Below, piece by piece: positions 1-8,994 of a stretch of 64,000 nt of DNA (the first letter of the stretch is position 1; each line of letters starts with the position of its first letter). Below the pieces are notes generated by a model. The model was not told the DNA's origin and searched no databases. It saw nothing but the letters and a program-made list of their open reading frames with translations. The stretch is from Planctomycetota bacterium (GTDB taxonomy: Bacteria; Planctomycetota; Planctomycetia; Planctomycetales; Planctomycetaceae). The position numbers were made by a program, and so were the translations under genes. The stretch is taken from assembly GCA_016872645.1 (NCBI GenBank), contig VGZH01000023.1, positions 1 to 64,000 of the forward strand, given 5' to 3'.

Positions 1-221
1 CTCTGATGTTTCTAGCAGCGATCGCCCATGTCCGATTCTGGCATCCAACTCGGTTGACGTGGTTAGACGAAGTTGATTCATCCGCTGCTGCGCCCGTTCA
101 ATAGAGACAGTGACCTCCTGAAAGACGTCTTGACGGACTTCGCGGAATTTCAATATCCAACCACGCGACGTTCTGCAATTTCGGCCGGTGCTTGATACAT
201 GACATTTCAAGGAGGAATTCG

Positions 222-485
222 ATGGATCAGAATCTTGTCATCATAGGCTATCTCGATGCCGGAACCGGAAGTCTGATATTTCAGATTCTGGCTGCCAGCC
301 TCGTGAGCGCTGGGGTCGTTTTTGGCGGCGTGGTGACACAATTGCGCAGCTTCTTCTCACGCGTAGTACTTCGACGTCGACCGGAACAGCCCGTGGGCGA
401 GTCTCCGGTGTCGTCCGACAAAACAGTCATTGCTTTACACGGCGAGAAGACGCAGGAGTCGGTGACGCACCGCAAGGCGGCTTGA
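222..485 (+). CDS. Small membrane protein of a polysaccharide cluster (LDAGTGS motif)
   Basis: An 87-residue protein of unknown function. The ATG at 222 is preceded by a near-perfect ribosome binding site (AAGGAGG, 209-215), so I prefer it to the in-frame TTG at 192. Residues about 10-16 read LDAGTGS and run straight into one hydrophobic helix (about 17-36). A basic segment and a polar, probably cytoplasmic tail follow. I recall small proteins with a similar Asp-x-Gly-Thr-Gly-Ser N-terminus beside sulfatase-like and glycosyltransferase genes in bacterial surface-polysaccharide clusters, which fits the neighbours here. It is the first gene of a plus-strand run that continues with a methyltransferase and a membrane sulfatase-like protein. 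A scaffold or assembly role would be inference only. Confidence 0.75.
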   Translation: MDQNLVIIGYLDAGTGSLIFQILAASLVSAGVVFGGVVTQLRSFFSRVVLRRRPEQPVGESPVSSDKTVIALHGEKTQESVTHRKAA

Positions 486-594
486 TCGCGTGGAGTATTC
501 TGAAATCAGGCCGGGCAGGCATGAAGCAAACCCGACGATCGGTCACTTTCCCGCGCATGCGGGAATTCGTATTGAGTTCTACAAGGATGTGTCC

Positions 595-1992
595 ATGGCA
601 TTCGCGGCACGTGTGCCCGGTTCATTTCGAGATCCCAGTGGCTTCGTCTTTTCGCGACAAGGCATCGTTCATCGGCAGATCGCGCCATCCTATGCCCCGC
701 AATACGAGCGACTGATTTCGAGTGGGCTGTACGACGAGCTTGTAAGTGACGAGTTGCTGCTTCCGCACCAAGAGCTCGATGTCCGACTGGCCTTTTCGGA
801 GGAAGCCTACAAAGTTCTCCGACCTGCTCAGCTTCCATTTATTTCTTATCCGTTCGAGTGGAGCTTCAGTCAACTCAAGGATGCCGCACTGACCACGCTG
901 CGAATCCAGCGTGCGGCTTTGAAGCGTGGGATGACACTCAAAGACGCGAGTGCCTACAACATCCAGTTGTTCGATGCGCGGCCGGCACTGATCGACACGC
1001 TCTCGTTTGAGTTTTATGAGGCTGGCAGTCCGTGGGTTGCCTACCGGCAGTTTTGTCAGCACTTCCTGGCTCCGCTGGCTCTGATGAGCCGAACCGATGT
1101 CCGTCTGGGCCAGCTTTTTCGCACCTATATTGATGGCGTGCCGCTCGATCTCGCTTCGCGACTGCTCCCGTATCGGACACGCTTCGGGCTTGGTCTGGGG
1201 TTGCATGTGCATGCTCATGCCAAGGCCCAACAAGTGTACTCCAATCATTCGTCGTCGGACAAAGCGCGTCCCTCACGAGGCATGTCGTTCAAAGCGCTTC
1301 AGTCGCTGGTGACGCATCTCGAACAAACGATTTTGGGATTGAATGCGCCCACTCAGCAGACGGAATGGGCGGACTATTACGACGCCAACAACAATTACGG
1401 CAAGGACGGGCTCGATGCCAAAGAACGAGTGGTCCAGAGCATTCTGGCGGATCGTCCCCCCAACACCGTTTGGGATCTGGGAGCGAATGACGGCCGTTTC
1501 AGTCGATTGGCTCGCGGGGCGGGTGCCAGTTCGGTGGTCGCCTGGGACATCGATCCGAACTGCGTGGATGCGAGCTATCGCCAAGTCATCGCTCATCGTG
1601 AGCAGGGCCACTTTCCGCTCCTTTTAGATTTGACGAATCCCAGCCCCGCGATGGGTTGGGCACATCGAGAGCGACTGTCTTTGGCCGAACGAGGGCCGGT
1701 CGATGTTGTCTTGGCTCTCGGGTTGATTCATCACCTGGCCATCTCGAACAACGTGCCGCTGTCCCAGGTGGCCGCCTATTTTCGAACGCTGACTCGGCGA
1801 CTCGTCATCGAGTGGGTTCCCAAGGAGGACTCTCAAGTCCGGAAACTCCTGGCGACACGGCCAGACATTTTTCCGGACTACGTTCAGTCGAAGTTCGAGG
1901 CTGACTTTGCCAACCAGTTTCACATTCTGCAAAAGGTCTCCGTGGAGGGAACATGCCGCACACTGTATCTGATGGAATCCCAGCCAAGCTGA
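595..1992 (+). CDS. NoeA-like SAM-dependent methyltransferase
   Basis: About 465 residues. The N-terminal 250 residues (GSFRDPSGFVF near residue 8) resemble the NoeA/nodulation-type methyltransferases of polysaccharide clusters. The C-terminal half carries a class I SAM-binding motif near residue 291 (WDLGANDGRFS) followed by an acidic strand end (AWDID). It probably methylates a sugar or glycan precursor in the cytoplasm; the substrate cannot be read from the sequence. An upstream in-frame GTG at 490 would add 35 residues of unlikely composition. I chose the ATG at 595 because AAGGA lies about 7 bases before it and the family-like sequence begins there. Its TGA overlaps the ATG of the next gene (TGATG), implying translational coupling. 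Confidence 0.8.
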   Translation: MAFAARVPGSFRDPSGFVFSRQGIVHRQIAPSYAPQYERLISSGLYDELVSDELLLPHQELDVRLAFSEEAYKVLRPAQLPFISYPFEWSFSQLKDAALTTLRIQRAALKRGMTLKDASAYNIQLFDARPALIDTLSFEFYEAGSPWVAYRQFCQHFLAPLALMSRTDVRLGQLFRTYIDGVPLDLASRLLPYRTRFGLGLGLHVHAHAKAQQVYSNHSSSDKARPSRGMSFKALQSLVTHLEQTILGLNAPTQQTEWADYYDANNNYGKDGLDAKERVVQSILADRPPNTVWDLGANDGRFSRLARGAGASSVVAWDIDPNCVDASYRQVIAHREQGHFPLLLDLTNPSPAMGWAHRERLSLAERGPVDVVLALGLIHHLAISNNVPLSQVAAYFRTLTRRLVIEWVPKEDSQVRKLLATRPDIFPDYVQSKFEADFANQFHILQKVSVEGTCRTLYLMESQPS

Positions 1993-3554
1993 TGCCGAAA
2001 TGGGAAGACGCACATCCGTGGCTGCTTCCAGCGTTGGTGGTCATGTCATTGGGCTCGAGGAACGTCAATTATTTTACGCTGGCCGACGTGCTCGCCATGC
2101 TCGGACTCACATTGTTGCCAATCACGGTCGGCTTTCTGGTGTTGGTGTTCATCCGGCGCAGCGCGCGCCATGCAGCATTGCTGACTTCGTGGATCAGCCT
2201 TCTGGTCTTCTACTACGGCTCGCTGTGTGATGGCCTTGCGACCATTCCCAACGGGGGCGGTGCCGCACTTCACCATGGCGTACTGATTTCGATTGGCGTA
2301 GGAGTGACGGCGGTCATCTGGAATCTTGCCGGAGAATTGAAATCGCTCTCGAAATTCGTATCGCTGACGATGTTGATCCCGCTGCTGTGCTTCAGCGCAA
2401 AACTTGGAATGATTTTGGTGCGGGAACCGCGATTACCGCAGATCGACTTTGCAAAGACTTCTACGGCTTTGTCTGAAGTCGCCTCTGCGGAAGATGGCCG
2501 CCCCGACATTTACTACATCGTTCTTGACAGCTACAGCCGCGGTGATGTCCTTCAGAAGTCCTACGACTTCGACAATTCCGAGTTCTTAGACGGACTCCGT
2601 CAACGCGGATTTTATGTGGCCGAAAAGAGCAGCACGAACTACACCATGACGGCTTTTTCGCTGTCATCAACTCTCAACATGCGCTATCACGAATCGTTCA
2701 ATCCTCAATGGGGATTCAAGTCACTCGCCCAAATGCTGCGGGTCCATGAGGTTGGACAAAATCTGCGCGACTGCGGATATCAACTGATTCACTTCAATAC
2801 TTACTTTATGCCGACAGCCTGCTCCGAAATTTCTCATCTGTCGCTTGGTGAGCCAACAACGTGGCTTCCCGTCGGAACTCGCACGTTGGCGATTCAAATG
2901 ATTAGTCACAGCGCTTTTAACTTTTGCTATGGAGGAGAGAAAGGGATCATCGCCGCAGAGCATCGTCGCGCTTTCAGGCAACTCGCGGAGATACCGAAGT
3001 TACGGGGGCCGAAGTTTACTTTCTGCCATCTGATCACTCCGCACAAGCCGTATGTCTTTACCCGCGATGGCCAGACCGATTGGAATCTCGACCAAACCAG
3101 TCCAAAAGTCTACGTCGATCAAGTCGTCTACTTGAATCGGGAAGTGATGCGCACGATCGACGCCATCCGCTCGAAGAGCAAGACTCCACCCATCATCATT
3201 GTCCAATCGGATCACGGTCCGGGCCGCAACTTGGTGAAGGGCAGTTTGGATCATGTGCAGGGGCGAATTCCGATTCTCAACGCGTATCTTGTTCCCGAGT
3301 CGATGCGGAGCGAACTGTATCCGACGATCACTCCGGTCAACACTTTTCGGCTGCTGTTCTCAAAATGCTTTGGGTTTGACTATGCGCCGCTGCCCGATCG
3401 GAATTTCCTCATTCACGAAACGATCTGGTCGAGCATCATGGAAGTTTCCGACAAGGTCCACGACGGGACACCGGAGCCAGGGCTGCTGAGCCCGGCGGCT
3501 CTCTCCAAGGTGAATTCAATTGCCAAAGGAGAAGCCACGACTCAAATGGACTGA
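1992..3554 (+). CDS. Membrane-anchored sulfatase-like hydrolase/transferase
   Basis: A 520-residue protein with about four hydrophobic segments in the first 150 residues, followed by an alkaline-phosphatase/sulfatase-fold domain on the periplasmic side. Supporting motifs are DIYYIVLDSYSR near residue 172 (first metal-binding strand), STNYTMTAFSL near 222 (nucleophile region, probably Thr or Ser), HLITPHKPY near 350 and SDHGPG near 406. Proteins of this build transfer or remove phospho-substituents or sulfate on surface glycans; the substrate is unknown. The start at 1992 overlaps the preceding stop codon. A longer start at 1953 is possible but would overlap the previous gene by 40 bases. Confidence 0.8.
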   Translation: MPKWEDAHPWLLPALVVMSLGSRNVNYFTLADVLAMLGLTLLPITVGFLVLVFIRRSARHAALLTSWISLLVFYYGSLCDGLATIPNGGGAALHHGVLISIGVGVTAVIWNLAGELKSLSKFVSLTMLIPLLCFSAKLGMILVREPRLPQIDFAKTSTALSEVASAEDGRPDIYYIVLDSYSRGDVLQKSYDFDNSEFLDGLRQRGFYVAEKSSTNYTMTAFSLSSTLNMRYHESFNPQWGFKSLAQMLRVHEVGQNLRDCGYQLIHFNTYFMPTACSEISHLSLGEPTTWLPVGTRTLAIQMISHSAFNFCYGGEKGIIAAEHRRAFRQLAEIPKLRGPKFTFCHLITPHKPYVFTRDGQTDWNLDQTSPKVYVDQVVYLNREVMRTIDAIRSKSKTPPIIIVQSDHGPGRNLVKGSLDHVQGRIPILNAYLVPESMRSELYPTITPVNTFRLLFSKCFGFDYAPLPDRNFLIHETIWSSIMEVSDKVHDGTPEPGLLSPAALSKVNSIAKGEATTQMD

Positions 3555-4493: not shown

Positions 4494-5195
4494 ATGCGAT
4501 TCAAATACCTGATGAAAACCCTGCTGAGCCCCTTCACCGTTCGGATTCGAGCGGGAGCGCTACAAGGTCGGCGATGGGTCATAGCCAGCGGCAGCCGCTT
4601 CGTGAAGGGCACCTATGAGCCGATTCAGTCGGAGGCGTTTCACCGGCTGATCCATCCCGGCAGTGTGGTCTTCGATGTCGGCGCGCACGTCGGCTACTAC
4701 ACCGTGCTGTCGTCGGTCTTGGCCGGCCCGAGTGGCCAAGTTATTGCCTTCGAGCCGCTACCAGCCAATCTCAAATATCTCCGCCGGCACTTGCAATTGA
4801 ATGCCTGCGGCAACGTGCGAGTTCTGACGAACTGCGTCGGCGAGGGTTCGTCAACAGCAAGGTTCGATGATTCACACGGCACCGGCGTTGGCCATCTGGC
4901 GACCGCAGGCAGGCTCGAAGTCCAAGTCCGTTCGTTGGACGAGATGGTCGAATCCGGAGAACTCCCGATTCCGCAGTTCATCAAGATCGACGTCGAAGGT
5001 GCCGAGTTGCTGGTGCTCCGCGGAGCGGAACAATTGCTGCGACGACATCACCCGACGCTGGTCCTTTCGACTCACAGCGACGACTTAGATCGAGCTTGTT
5101 TGCAGCGGCTGTCCGAGTTCGGCTACGAGGTCGAGCATCTCGAAGCGGACGTGCTTGTTGCGCGAGTCAAGCTCGCCACAGCAATTGCCGCTTGA
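4494..5195 (+). CDS. FkbM family methyltransferase (second copy)
   Basis: A 233-residue protein of the same family as its upstream neighbour but clearly diverged. Motif I is VVFDVGAHVGYYTV near residue 60, then IAFEPLPANL, and FIKIDVEGAELLVLRGAEQLL near residue 160. It is a predicted cytoplasmic O-methyltransferase acting on a glycan or lipid-linked sugar. The two FkbM genes suggest two methylation positions on the same polymer (inference). The start ATG at 4494 leaves a 23-base spacer from the previous stop. 116 bases separate it from the heptosyltransferase. Confidence 0.83.
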   Translation: MRFKYLMKTLLSPFTVRIRAGALQGRRWVIASGSRFVKGTYEPIQSEAFHRLIHPGSVVFDVGAHVGYYTVLSSVLAGPSGQVIAFEPLPANLKYLRRHLQLNACGNVRVLTNCVGEGSSTARFDDSHGTGVGHLATAGRLEVQVRSLDEMVESGELPIPQFIKIDVEGAELLVLRGAEQLLRRHHPTLVLSTHSDDLDRACLQRLSEFGYEVEHLEADVLVARVKLATAIAA

Positions 5196-5311: not shown

Positions 5312-6361
5312 ATGAAACTCGCCGTCTGGCTGCCCAATTGGATCGGTGACGTCGCGATGGCGACGCCAGCATTGCGTGCGCTGCGGGATCATTTCGTCGG
5401 CGCGGAGATCGTGGGCATCTTGCGTCCGTATGTGGCCGACGTGCTGGCCGGGACGACGCTGCTTGATCGCCTGTGGATTCACAAACTCAAGCAATCTCGT
5501 GCGGACGCTTGGAGGTTTCTACGAGCACTCCGTCGGGAACGCTTCGATCAGGCGGTCGTGTTGCCGAACTCCTTGCGTTCCGCCGCGTGGGCGTGGGCAT
5601 CTGGAGCGAAACGGTCGCTTGGCTACGCACGCAATGGACGCAGCGTTCTGCTGACCGATCCGATTCCTGCACCGTCTTTGTCAGTGCCACATCCGGTGCT
5701 AGATGAGATGTTGCAGTTGGTCGCGCAGCTTGGCTGTCAAACGCTGTCACGGCAGTTGGAACTCGCGACGTTACCGCGCGATACGGAACAGCTGACGGCA
5801 TTTTGGAAACGTCATCCGGCTGCGGACTCCTCGAATTGTGTCTGCCTCAATTCCGGTGGGACTTCAGGTGCTTCCTCGGCGAAAGATTGGCCGACAGAAT
5901 CCTTCGCGGAATTGGCGCGTCGCCTCGCCGTCGAACTTGGCCAAACGGTCTTGGTTGTTTGCGGTCCCAACGAACGCGCGACGGCCCAACGTATTGTCGC
6001 CGAAGTCGCACATCCGCAGGTCGTGAGCTTGGCCGGAGAAACTGTGAGCATCGGACTGACAAAGGCCGCGATACGCGACTCGCGATTACTGGTCACAACG
6101 GATTCCGGACCTCGGCACTTTGCCGCTGCGTTCCGGGTTCCATGCCTGACACTCTTCGGGCCGACGCACATCAGATGGAGCGAGACGTTTCATCCGCTGG
6201 CTGTTCATCTGCAACACCGGTTGGATTGTGGTCCGTGCCAACAACGAGCCTGCCCACTCAAACATCATCGCTGTATGCGCGAGCTGACCGTCGACCACGT
6301 CTTCAGCGAGATCGTCCGGCGCTGGCCAAGTTCCTCCGCTCAAGTTTCCAAGGTCGCATGA
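5312..6361 (+). CDS. waaF: ADP-heptose--LPS heptosyltransferase (GT9 family)
   Basis: A 349-residue glycosyltransferase family 9 protein. The N-terminus is typical (KLAVWLPNWIGDVAMATPALRAL), with the glycine-rich acceptor-side loop. The donor-binding half contains LVVCGPNE near residue 212 and TDSGPRHFAAAF plus LFGPTH near 260-290. A cysteine-rich C-terminal motif (CGPCQQRACPLKHHRCM) is common in WaaF-like proteins. The enzyme transfers heptose to lipid A/inner core in the cytoplasm. The last 111 bases of this gene are duplicated, with divergence, at 8884-8994. The exact acceptor (WaaC, WaaF or WaaQ type) cannot be assigned, so the symbol is tentative. Confidence 0.85.
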   Translation: MKLAVWLPNWIGDVAMATPALRALRDHFVGAEIVGILRPYVADVLAGTTLLDRLWIHKLKQSRADAWRFLRALRRERFDQAVVLPNSLRSAAWAWASGAKRSLGYARNGRSVLLTDPIPAPSLSVPHPVLDEMLQLVAQLGCQTLSRQLELATLPRDTEQLTAFWKRHPAADSSNCVCLNSGGTSGASSAKDWPTESFAELARRLAVELGQTVLVVCGPNERATAQRIVAEVAHPQVVSLAGETVSIGLTKAAIRDSRLLVTTDSGPRHFAAAFRVPCLTLFGPTHIRWSETFHPLAVHLQHRLDCGPCQQRACPLKHHRCMRELTVDHVFSEIVRRWPSSSAQVSKVA

Positions 6362-6486
6362 GGCTCTTAGCGGAGTGGTTTGGTGATAGGTAGGTCATGG
6401 AAGAACACACATTGACGATCCGGTCAATTGGCCACATGATCCGACTTTATTTTGTTACTTGGCTTCGCAAGGGATGGCGATGAGTC

Positions 6487-7416
6487 ATGGTGTCGATTCG
6501 CTCCGAACAGGATTTCCAAGAACACTCGTTTTCGCAGGAGGTTTCCGTCTGCGGACTGCACGAGGAGCAGCAGACTGAGCCTCAGTCGATCGCGGCATGG
6601 CCACTGATCTTGGAACGACGCTCTGCGGACTTGGCGATCAGGCAGTCGCTGGTTCGTCGAATGATTTACGACTGTCGGCTTTCGAGGCCGCTTGTCGATC
6701 GGCTCTGGAATGACCTCGACTCGTTCGCTCAACGGGGGCGAGTCTTATCTGATCGAGCACGCGCTCAAGTGACGGCAATCCGTCTGGATGACGGGGAAAT
6801 CCAACACTCCTCGCACCTGCCACCGGGGCCACATGCTCGAAGACTGTCGCAACCTGCGATCGATGAAGGGGTTCTCAAGCGATTCCGTCTTTGCGGTTGG
6901 TGGCATACGTCGGGGCACATGTTTTTGCCAACGCGTGCGCAAAATTGCTGGGGTTATGGGCGTAAACTTTTGAAGGTCGGTCTCTTAACTCCCCGGCCAT
7001 TGGCGATGATTGAAGAGCGTGCAGGTCCGTTGCGATTTTGCTCGTCTGTGCTGACGGAATTTGTTCCAGGAATCAATTTGGATCGCTTTGTCCAACAGAC
7101 GGAACCTTCGACTCAAGAACTGAGTCGGTTGGCCGAAGACTTTGCAGAGATGTGGTTCAAATTTGGCCAATTGCGGTTGTCGCATGGCGACTTTTATCCT
7201 GGCAATCTGCTCGTCACACCAGATGGTCGGCTTCAATTGATCGATCTCGACCGCATGAACCAACACTGGTTCCGTCACCGCCATTTGCGGCAGCGCGAGA
7301 AAGACTGGAAGTGCTTTCAAGAACGGTCGCAACAAGTGCCAGCCCTTTGGGCGGCATTCCATGCGGCTGTCTTGCGACGTGAATCCCAAGCGGTTGGCAA
7401 CGAACAAGGAGTGTAA
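6487..7416 (+). CDS. LPS core kinase-like protein (WaaP/Kdo kinase family)
   Basis: A 309-residue protein with the protein-kinase-like fold of lipopolysaccharide kinases. The catalytic loop is RLSHGDFYPGNLLV near residue 235, followed by LQLIDLDRMN as the metal-binding Asp segment. The N-terminal 100 residues are poorly conserved, and the region around GYGRKLLKVGLLTPRPLA looks like the beta-strand/helix-C part. It is expected to phosphorylate a heptose or Kdo sugar of the LPS core using ATP. It lies 125 bases after the heptosyltransferase and 3 bases before the next gene, so those two are probably co-translated. This gene and the next are bracketed by the two copies of the heptosyltransferase tail. 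Confidence 0.75.
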   Translation: MVSIRSEQDFQEHSFSQEVSVCGLHEEQQTEPQSIAAWPLILERRSADLAIRQSLVRRMIYDCRLSRPLVDRLWNDLDSFAQRGRVLSDRARAQVTAIRLDDGEIQHSSHLPPGPHARRLSQPAIDEGVLKRFRLCGWWHTSGHMFLPTRAQNCWGYGRKLLKVGLLTPRPLAMIEERAGPLRFCSSVLTEFVPGINLDRFVQQTEPSTQELSRLAEDFAEMWFKFGQLRLSHGDFYPGNLLVTPDGRLQLIDLDRMNQHWFRHRHLRQREKDWKCFQERSQQVPALWAAFHAAVLRRESQAVGNEQGV

Positions 7417-7419
7417 TTC

Positions 7420-8811
7420 ATGAGCCAAGTCGAACATGATCAGGCCCGCGGGAAACCGGGCAAAGCAGTGCCGATTACTCTTTCGTTCGACAAGTTATAT
7501 CAGCAGGACTCAATTGCTGTGCGAGGCCTATTGCAATGTCTGCGCGAGATCTCCAGTGAAGGTCCAACATTTGTCTTATTGCTGGAGTCCTCACTGGATG
7601 AACGTTGCGTCAATGACAGAGACATTGACCTTCTGGGGACGACTACTGCTGTCGAATCGCTGTTGGCAGCCTGCTTCTCCTGGGCACAGTCAGGACGTTG
7701 CCACTTTCGTGTGACGCGGAAAAGAGAGGGCAATGTCGGCTTGGCTCTCTTCTCTCGATGTGGCAAGTTCCGCATTCAATTCGATCTTTTCACCGAATTG
7801 TGGCAACTGAATGGCGGGCGCTGCGGGTTACGTTTTGAGGATGTCGCCCACCTGTTGCCCCCTGGGCAGCCGGGTTTCGTGCGATTGCCTGTGCCCGTTG
7901 AGGCCGCAATTTACTTGCACAAGTACGTTGTGAAGAGAAGGTCGATTGAATCGAACAGGATCCGCCAACGATTGAATGGCTATTCGTCTGCCTGCCGACA
8001 AGCAGGGGCAATGGAGTCCGCCGACGATCTCGATGCCGTGTTGCAATATGGGCGTGTCGAGCCTGCGGCGCTGATTCGCGCCATACAGTTGCTTCGGTCG
8101 TACAACGTCGTTCCTTCGCTGACGAATTCTTGGCAATCAATGCGACGGCACTGGATCGCTCGCTGGCGACGATGGTGGTTCGGAGTAACTCGCCATCCGG
8201 CAGTGATTTCGTTCATGGGGTGCGATGGCGCGGGAAAGACGTCGCTCTCCGAGGGTCTGTCAAAGGAATCAAGCCTACCGGTCATCCTAAAGCCATTCGT
8301 TGGACGAAACCTGTATCGCAAATCGCTGATTTATCGCTTATTCGGAAGCTTTGTCCGACGAAGCCTGTCGATCAATCGGGACCGCTTTGACGAGAAGTGT
8401 TGTCTTCCGTTGTACCTTCAAGCAGCGGGGCATCTCCGGCGAAAAGTTTATTGGCGTCAACTTTTGGGTAGCCAGAAGCTGCTCGTGATGGATCGCACAT
8501 TGGTGGACCTGCTTTACACACAGCGTCTTTCGGACGAGGCAAAATTTGGACGCTGGGTTCGCCTTGCGGACTACTTCGGAATCCGACTACCGACCGTTCA
8601 CTTCGTCGTGGACTTCGAACGACTCCACGCTCGCAAAGCGGAATGTTCGGAGATCGCTCACCGACAATACGACGAGGACATGTTTTGGTTTCATGTTCGG
8701 CGCGTTCCGACGGATTACACCGTCTTCAGCAATTGCGGGACGTTCGATGACTCCAAGACAGCGCTGACTCACGTCATTCAAGCGAATTGGCCTCGACGGC
8801 GCGCGGCGTGA
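7420..8811 (+). CDS. Nucleotidyltransferase-like / P-loop (thymidylate-kinase-like) fusion
   Basis: A 463-residue protein with two parts. The first 180 residues resemble a nucleotidyltransferase fold, with LLESSLDERCVNDRDIDLLG near residue 48 offering the Asp-x-Asp pair. The C-terminal part from about residue 260 is a P-loop kinase: SFMGCDGAGKTSLSEGL is Walker A, and LLVMDRTLVDLLYTQ near 352 matches the DR(Y/S)-type segment of thymidylate-kinase-like enzymes. It is therefore probably a kinase acting on a small molecule or glycan of this cluster rather than housekeeping Tmk. It starts 3 bases after the LPS-kinase-like gene. The substrate is unknown. Confidence 0.65.
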   Translation: MSQVEHDQARGKPGKAVPITLSFDKLYQQDSIAVRGLLQCLREISSEGPTFVLLLESSLDERCVNDRDIDLLGTTTAVESLLAACFSWAQSGRCHFRVTRKREGNVGLALFSRCGKFRIQFDLFTELWQLNGGRCGLRFEDVAHLLPPGQPGFVRLPVPVEAAIYLHKYVVKRRSIESNRIRQRLNGYSSACRQAGAMESADDLDAVLQYGRVEPAALIRAIQLLRSYNVVPSLTNSWQSMRRHWIARWRRWWFGVTRHPAVISFMGCDGAGKTSLSEGLSKESSLPVILKPFVGRNLYRKSLIYRLFGSFVRRSLSINRDRFDEKCCLPLYLQAAGHLRRKVYWRQLLGSQKLLVMDRTLVDLLYTQRLSDEAKFGRWVRLADYFGIRLPTVHFVVDFERLHARKAECSEIAHRQYDEDMFWFHVRRVPTDYTVFSNCGTFDDSKTALTHVIQANWPRRRAA

Positions 8812-8883
8812 TACTCAACGGCGTTTGATTCCTTGGACTCATGGAAGTTTGACTGACCTCTTCGGCTTTTTTTCGGATGGATC

Positions 8884-8994
8884 TGCCCACTCAAACATCA
8901 TCGCTGTATGCGCGAGCTGACTGTCGATGACGCCTTCAGCGGGATCGTCCGACGTTGGCCAATTTTCTCTAATCAAGTTGCTAAAGTCGCGTGA
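8884..8994 (+). pseudogene. Relic copy of the heptosyltransferase 3' end
   Basis: These 111 bases align without gaps to 6251-6361, the last 111 bases of the heptosyltransferase gene including its stop. The first 38 bases are identical and about 16 bases differ overall (hand count). The frame is intact and would encode CPLKHHRCMRELTVDDAFSG and then the same style of C-terminus, but there is no body of the gene upstream. It is a leftover of a tandem or recombined paralogue. Confidence 0.8.

Follow-up and report, generated by a model that had tools for sequence, protein, structure and literature searches.

O-antigen and LPS gene clusters are mosaics that are exchanged between conserved flanks and carry gene remnants at their edges. 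In 3'-end displacement, described for Rhs loci and for type VI secretion system (T6SS) effector–immunity arrays (PMC5361080), a gene receives a new 3' part from an incoming module that also carries downstream genes, and an orphan 3' end lies downstream. Homology-facilitated illegitimate recombination (PMC3240628; papers cited in PMC5361080) combines one homologous junction with one microhomology junction, and has also been reported in E. coli conjugation, with low efficiency (PMC3240628). In transformation-induced merodiploidy (PMC3784515), partial gene copies border a stretch of DNA after the uptake of homologous DNA, and the duplications are tandem copies of resident DNA of about 100–900 kb. 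A search of the literature on LPS heptosyltransferases of Planctomycetes found nothing useful.

Here, we analyse a heptosyltransferase locus in a 64,000-nucleotide stretch of planctomycete DNA, hereafter the window. At the level of sequence comparison, divergence, a break-point and synteny show that the locus, on the edge of a surface-polysaccharide (LPS-type) gene cluster, is a mosaic made by recombination; transfer may have run in either direction, and 'imported' would be shorthand. The closest known process appears, by analogy, to be the 3'-end displacement of Rhs and type VI effector loci.

A repeated heptosyltransferase tail and the genes around it

The features of the locus are given below. 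They are compared with those of G009 (L035, L036) and G005 (L037), species of the same genus as the window, of G004 (L079) and of the more distant L106; all sequences are draft MAGs.

4494..5195, + strand: gene for an FkbM methyltransferase, preceding the heptosyltransferase; locus-type, 83% identical to G004 at the DNA level
5312..6137, + strand: body of heptosyltransferase II; allele about 29% different from G009
6138..6361, + strand: 3' part of the heptosyltransferase, G009/G005 type; 6% different from G009; the shared segment starts here
6250..6361, + strand: repeat copy 1, working 3' end of the heptosyltransferase
6487..7416, + strand: Kdo/WaaP-family LPS kinase (PF06293, 48.3 bits against a cut-off of 21.3)
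7420..8811, + strand: two-domain 'NTkinase', with a nucleotidyltransferase-like N-terminal part and a P-loop kinase-like C-terminal part
8812..8883, + strand: NTkinase trailer, common to G009 up to GG[A/C]TC, after which G009 and L106 enter an FkbM gene
8883..8994, + strand: repeat copy 2, apparently an orphan, decaying heptosyltransferase 3' end, without a start codon
9007..11253, - strand: oxidoreductase–SelD fusion gene, convergent; core flank

The initial annotation had reported that the last 111 bases of the heptosyltransferase (6251–6361) recur at 8884–8994 with about 86% identity. This was borne out with one base more: a repeat search gave 6250–6361 against 8883–8994, 112 nt without gaps, with 96 of 112 positions identical (86%) and 2633 nt from start to start. 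In an ungapped scan of the 112-mer along the whole 64 kb window, 8883 scored 96/112, and the runners-up reached 49 (+ strand) and 51 (- strand); since the next best placement is only 51/112, the repeat is far beyond chance. The left limit of similarity, which the same annotation had proposed to locate, is sharp at 8882/8883; the preceding DNA is the NTkinase trailer common to G009, and no further heptosyltransferase sequence precedes 8883. Copy 2 had also been described as still in frame with a stop, and its translation in the heptosyltransferase frame agrees, reading CPLKHHRCMRELTVDDAFSGIVRRWPIFSNQVAKVA* with frame and stop kept. There is no ATG, GTG or TTG upstream of copy 2 before the frame hits TGA at 8854. 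The copies agree at each of bases 1–39, and their 16 differences are confined to the other 73 (6289 onwards), an uneven spread with a Fisher P of about 0.001 for a boundary picked after the fact.

The gene at 5312–6361 encodes LPS heptosyltransferase II (TIGR02195 of NCBIfam, 136.2 bits against a cut-off of 134.6) and falls in GT9 (PF01075, 109.1 bits against 22). The LPS-kinase-like and nucleotidyltransferase/kinase genes that had been placed between the copies are indeed there, at 6487–7416 and 7420–8811; together they fill 6487–8811, and no recombinase or transposase, as would mark an integrase island or a transposon, lies between the copies. The WaaP and KdkA families phosphorylate a sugar of the LPS inner core. 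By family, the kinase at 6487–7416 would do the same; the motifs SHGDFYPGN and LIDLD are read from its translation. It falls short of the KdkA equivalog PRK01723 (33.9 bits against 142), so it is taken as a family member without an assigned acceptor sugar. In NTkinase, the C-terminal Walker A, FMGCDGAGKTS, was seen by eye, and a motif likewise seen by eye suggests that the N-terminal part is nucleotidyltransferase-like. No family scored above its cut-off for 7420–8811 (thymidylate kinase PF02223, 11.5 bits against 27), a sequence search against solved structures brought up no more than a marginal hit to a deoxynucleoside kinase (E=0.05) and a structure prediction from four sequences had a mean pLDDT of 36.9. 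From its neighbourhood, NTkinase presumably works in the same pathway as the kinase. Upstream lie genes for methyltransferases and for a sulfatase-like protein, such as surface-polysaccharide clusters contain; in G004, the counterpart of the FkbM gene is directly followed by a convergent methyltransferase and selD.

Mosaic structure of the locus

Compared with G009 in 60-base blocks, the window is mostly 58–87% identical in the heptosyltransferase body and about 93% identical from ~6137 onwards, a level that holds across tail, spacer, gene pair and trailer and stops exactly at 8883. A maximum chi-square scan against G009 places a break-point at 6137 (permutation P<0.001), with 29.2% difference to its left and 6.3% to its right; the same scan against G010 and against contig C113 of the window's assembly gave much lower peaks, at other places. 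Divergence from G009 at four-fold sites is 13.8% in the kinase and 12.4% in NTkinase, 58.7% in the heptosyltransferase body, and 36.9% and 38.4% in the flanking core genes selD and the neighbouring MBL gene, respectively, while G009 and G005 are about 93% identical in the cluster and about 86% in the core flank. Because divergence is lower in 6138–8883 than in the core flanks, we infer that this segment moved between species after the species split. The same contrast, together with the break at 6137, points to a chimeric heptosyltransferase, the gene pair having come with the new 3' end by homologous recombination.

Within the genus, NTkinase occurs in only three of 12 genomes (the window's own, G005 and G009); elsewhere in the family it is found at 26–37% identity in a few other genera. 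Ten such matches were checked, and a kinase homologue was absent from about 1.5 kb around each. G009 (L035) and G005 (L037) carry heptosyltransferase, kinase and NTkinase in the same order as the window, and the second tail copy is absent from both. NTkinase is followed by an FkbM gene in G009 and by a different gene in G005; next, convergent, come a selD fragment in the former and selD in the latter. Between YfhO and selD of G004 (L079), heptosyltransferase, kinase and NTkinase are all missing. A full second heptosyltransferase, which the initial annotation had envisaged in relatives, was not found at this exact place, and G009 and G005 are without one there.

On contig C113 (L034:1-17009), the genes between YfhO and a selD end make up another cluster, which includes a second full heptosyltransferase (75% at the amino-acid level); the contig represents either a co-binned strain or a second locus. 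In G005, an extra stretch of about 130 nt (L037:8594-8670), missing in the window and G009, lies between heptosyltransferase and kinase; a 65-nt part of it matches contig C170 of G009 (L077:1972-2037) in both orientations, in the manner of an inverted-repeat element. G009 has an edge scar at L035:7367-7981, where an RlmM-like gene comes after a 618-base piece of the selD 3' end, which matches this genome's full selD, on C170, at 92.7%, and another at L036:6086-6430, where a heptosyltransferase tail fragment (ORF of 114 aa) is convergent with YfhO.

At the right-hand edge of the shared segment, the trailer common to G009 and L106 reads GGATGGCTCGACT(C/G)AAGTCCGAG and then enters the FkbM gene; at the same point, the window reads GGATGGATC, followed by TGCCCACTC of the heptosyltransferase. 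The joint at 8882–8883 has a 2-base match, TC, common to both sources, and would look the same whether made by illegitimate joining or by a later deletion. G009 shares the order NTkinase–FkbM with the outgroup L106; a heptosyltransferase comes after FkbM on C113 and, as remnants, in L106. Because both orders occur in relatives, FkbM seems to be missing secondarily at the window's junction, and the orders on C113 and L106 suggest that a heptosyltransferase once lay after FkbM there.

In L106, a contig filed as a Phycisphaerae MAG, the kinase (50%) and NTkinase (70%) adjoin hldE; beyond the pair come a broken FkbM gene and then the start of a heptosyltransferase, roughly 100 bases long. At the two ends of this stretch (135–3165) lie the copies of a 165-base repeat (135–299 and 3001–3165), 97% identical to each other, around the start of hldE, and the left hldE copy is a remnant in three pieces. 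The pair thus appears to have been kept intact amid decaying neighbours, in both cases next to partial copies of a heptose gene; two cases are too few to establish a mobile module. It is highly unlikely, in our estimate, that the pair roams as an LPS-modification module, landing in heptose genes (here hepT; in L106, hldE) and ending up between partial copies of the gene it entered, and that RecA can then delete the pair and make that gene whole again, so that LPS phosphorylation would change reversibly.

Origin and fate of the second copy

The number of differences between copy 2 and other tails over the 112 bases is 13 for G009, 17 for G005, 16 for copy 1 and at least 33 for every other heptosyltransferase tail; by these counts, copy 2 is of the same allele type as copy 1. 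As the resident's old tail it would be expected to show at least 31 differences rather than 13 (binomial P about 3e-5, assuming about 28% divergence), and this origin is disfavoured. Also disfavoured is copy 2 as a late duplicate of copy 1, whose private changes (6295, 6319 and 6358) it does not share; for that reason, copy 2 would have split off before or at the exchange. That it lies within a longer surviving, decayed second heptosyltransferase was ruled out, as the upstream DNA is the NTkinase trailer common to G009. The 12 private changes of copy 2 are spread 3:5:4 over the codon positions, as in non-coding DNA, whereas those of functional tails are mostly at third positions; this contrast is not significant (P=0.20) and is only suggestive as a sign of decay. 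Judged from its sequence, copy 2 is a decaying orphan tail and not a gene, and the repeat most likely does nothing now.

The explanation that we regard as probable is a homologous exchange at ~6137, with copy 2 as an orphan cut from its body and left to decay. DNA related to G009/G005 would have undergone homologous recombination within the heptosyltransferase at about 6137, which joined the G009-type 3' end and the kinase and NTkinase genes to a different gene body. The simplest earlier order would be heptosyltransferase–kinase–NTkinase–FkbM–heptosyltransferase, from which FkbM and the second heptosyltransferase body would have been lost by deletion in the window's lineage, with the joint at TC; we favour this version over illegitimate end-joining at TC during the exchange, which may have made the same joint. 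Afterwards, copy 2 would decay as non-coding DNA, copy 1 being the working 3' end. The identical first 39 bases, set against 16 differences in the other 73, argue against uniform decay, and because such decay cannot explain the identical stretch, conversion between the repeats must be added. The initial annotation had offered ancient duplication with decay or cassette insertion by recombination between paralogous tails; both elements are supported, but the anatomy differs, in that the exchanged piece starts at ~6137 inside the heptosyltransferase and takes in copy 1, which makes copy 1 the tail of the newcomer, and only copy 2 is the decaying orphan.

The intact five-gene order that the deletion version needs is in no genome found, which keeps one-step, homology-facilitated illegitimate recombination in consideration as a tentative alternative. 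Linear DNA would pair at the heptosyltransferase and its other end would be joined illegitimately in the same gene, displacing the resident tail downstream, as has been proposed for Rhs and T6SS loci. The process is documented (PMC3240628; PMC5361080) and would account for ends of two kinds, homology at about 6137 and microhomology (TC) at 8882–8883, which lie within about 113 bp of each other in heptosyltransferase coordinates; copy 2 should then lie about 28% (at least 31 differences) from G009, and not 13 differences, unless the resident tail was already of this type. It is unlikely that a circle with tail, kinase and NTkinase was inserted into the heptosyltransferase tail in the Campbell manner, leaving direct repeats between whose 39-base stretches RecA excision may restore the heptosyltransferase. 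The direct repeats do share their frame, excision as computed leaves an uninterrupted, complete 349-aa frame that ends in copy 2, and the identical stretch sits where the crossover would be. Against this, the exchanged type already begins before the repeat and takes in 6138–6250, so that the crossover was not in the repeat alone, and neither a circle nor a recombinase gene was seen between the copies. In principle only, recombination between the copies could remove the pair and leave the heptosyltransferase complete.

Local duplication of copy 1 in the window's lineage after the exchange, followed by decay, would give two copies of the same allele type, as observed, yet the copy 1 private changes at 6295, 6319 and 6358 are missing from copy 2, and we consider this origin very unlikely. 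Least credible of all is a metagenome assembly artefact at the 39-base identical stretch: the MAG has 213 contigs, a second locus of the same type lies on C113 in the bin, and C113 matches the start of the window's contig at 94%, so that strain mixture is possible, but the trailer–tail junction at 8883 is at the edge of the identical stretch and not inside it, and the second half of copy 2 is unlike every other tail found.

Comparison with known systems

The locus is a clear but ordinary trace of gene-cluster swapping. It offers a base-resolution record of an LPS-decorating gene pair moving between planctomycete species via recombination inside a heptosyltransferase gene, and such exchanges leave orphan gene ends. 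For annotation, it warns that the 349-aa heptosyltransferase is a hybrid and that 8883–8994 is no gene. More widely, the YfhO–selD cluster may behave like an exchangeable surface-antigen locus.

As in the 3'-end displacement of Rhs and T6SS loci, there is a chimeric gene with an internal break-point (6137, P<0.001), a module with a new 3' part and downstream genes, and a downstream orphan 3' end without a start codon. Here, however, the gene is a sugar transferase and not a toxin, and the orphan is only 112 bp long, most likely has no function of its own and is of the same allele type as the newcomer; because it is not the resident allele's old tail, the exact displacement mechanism is not claimed. 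Homology-facilitated illegitimate recombination may share with this locus its pairing of a homologous and a microhomology junction, although here it would be deduced by comparison only and a later deletion also explains the second junction. The partial gene copies that border the stretch recall transformation-induced merodiploidy, whereas the DNA concerned is 2.6 kb of exchanged rather than resident sequence. With the mosaicism of O-antigen and LPS clusters, the locus has in common a swapped cluster with remnants at its edge, in this case in a planctomycete genus and between YfhO and selD as flanks.
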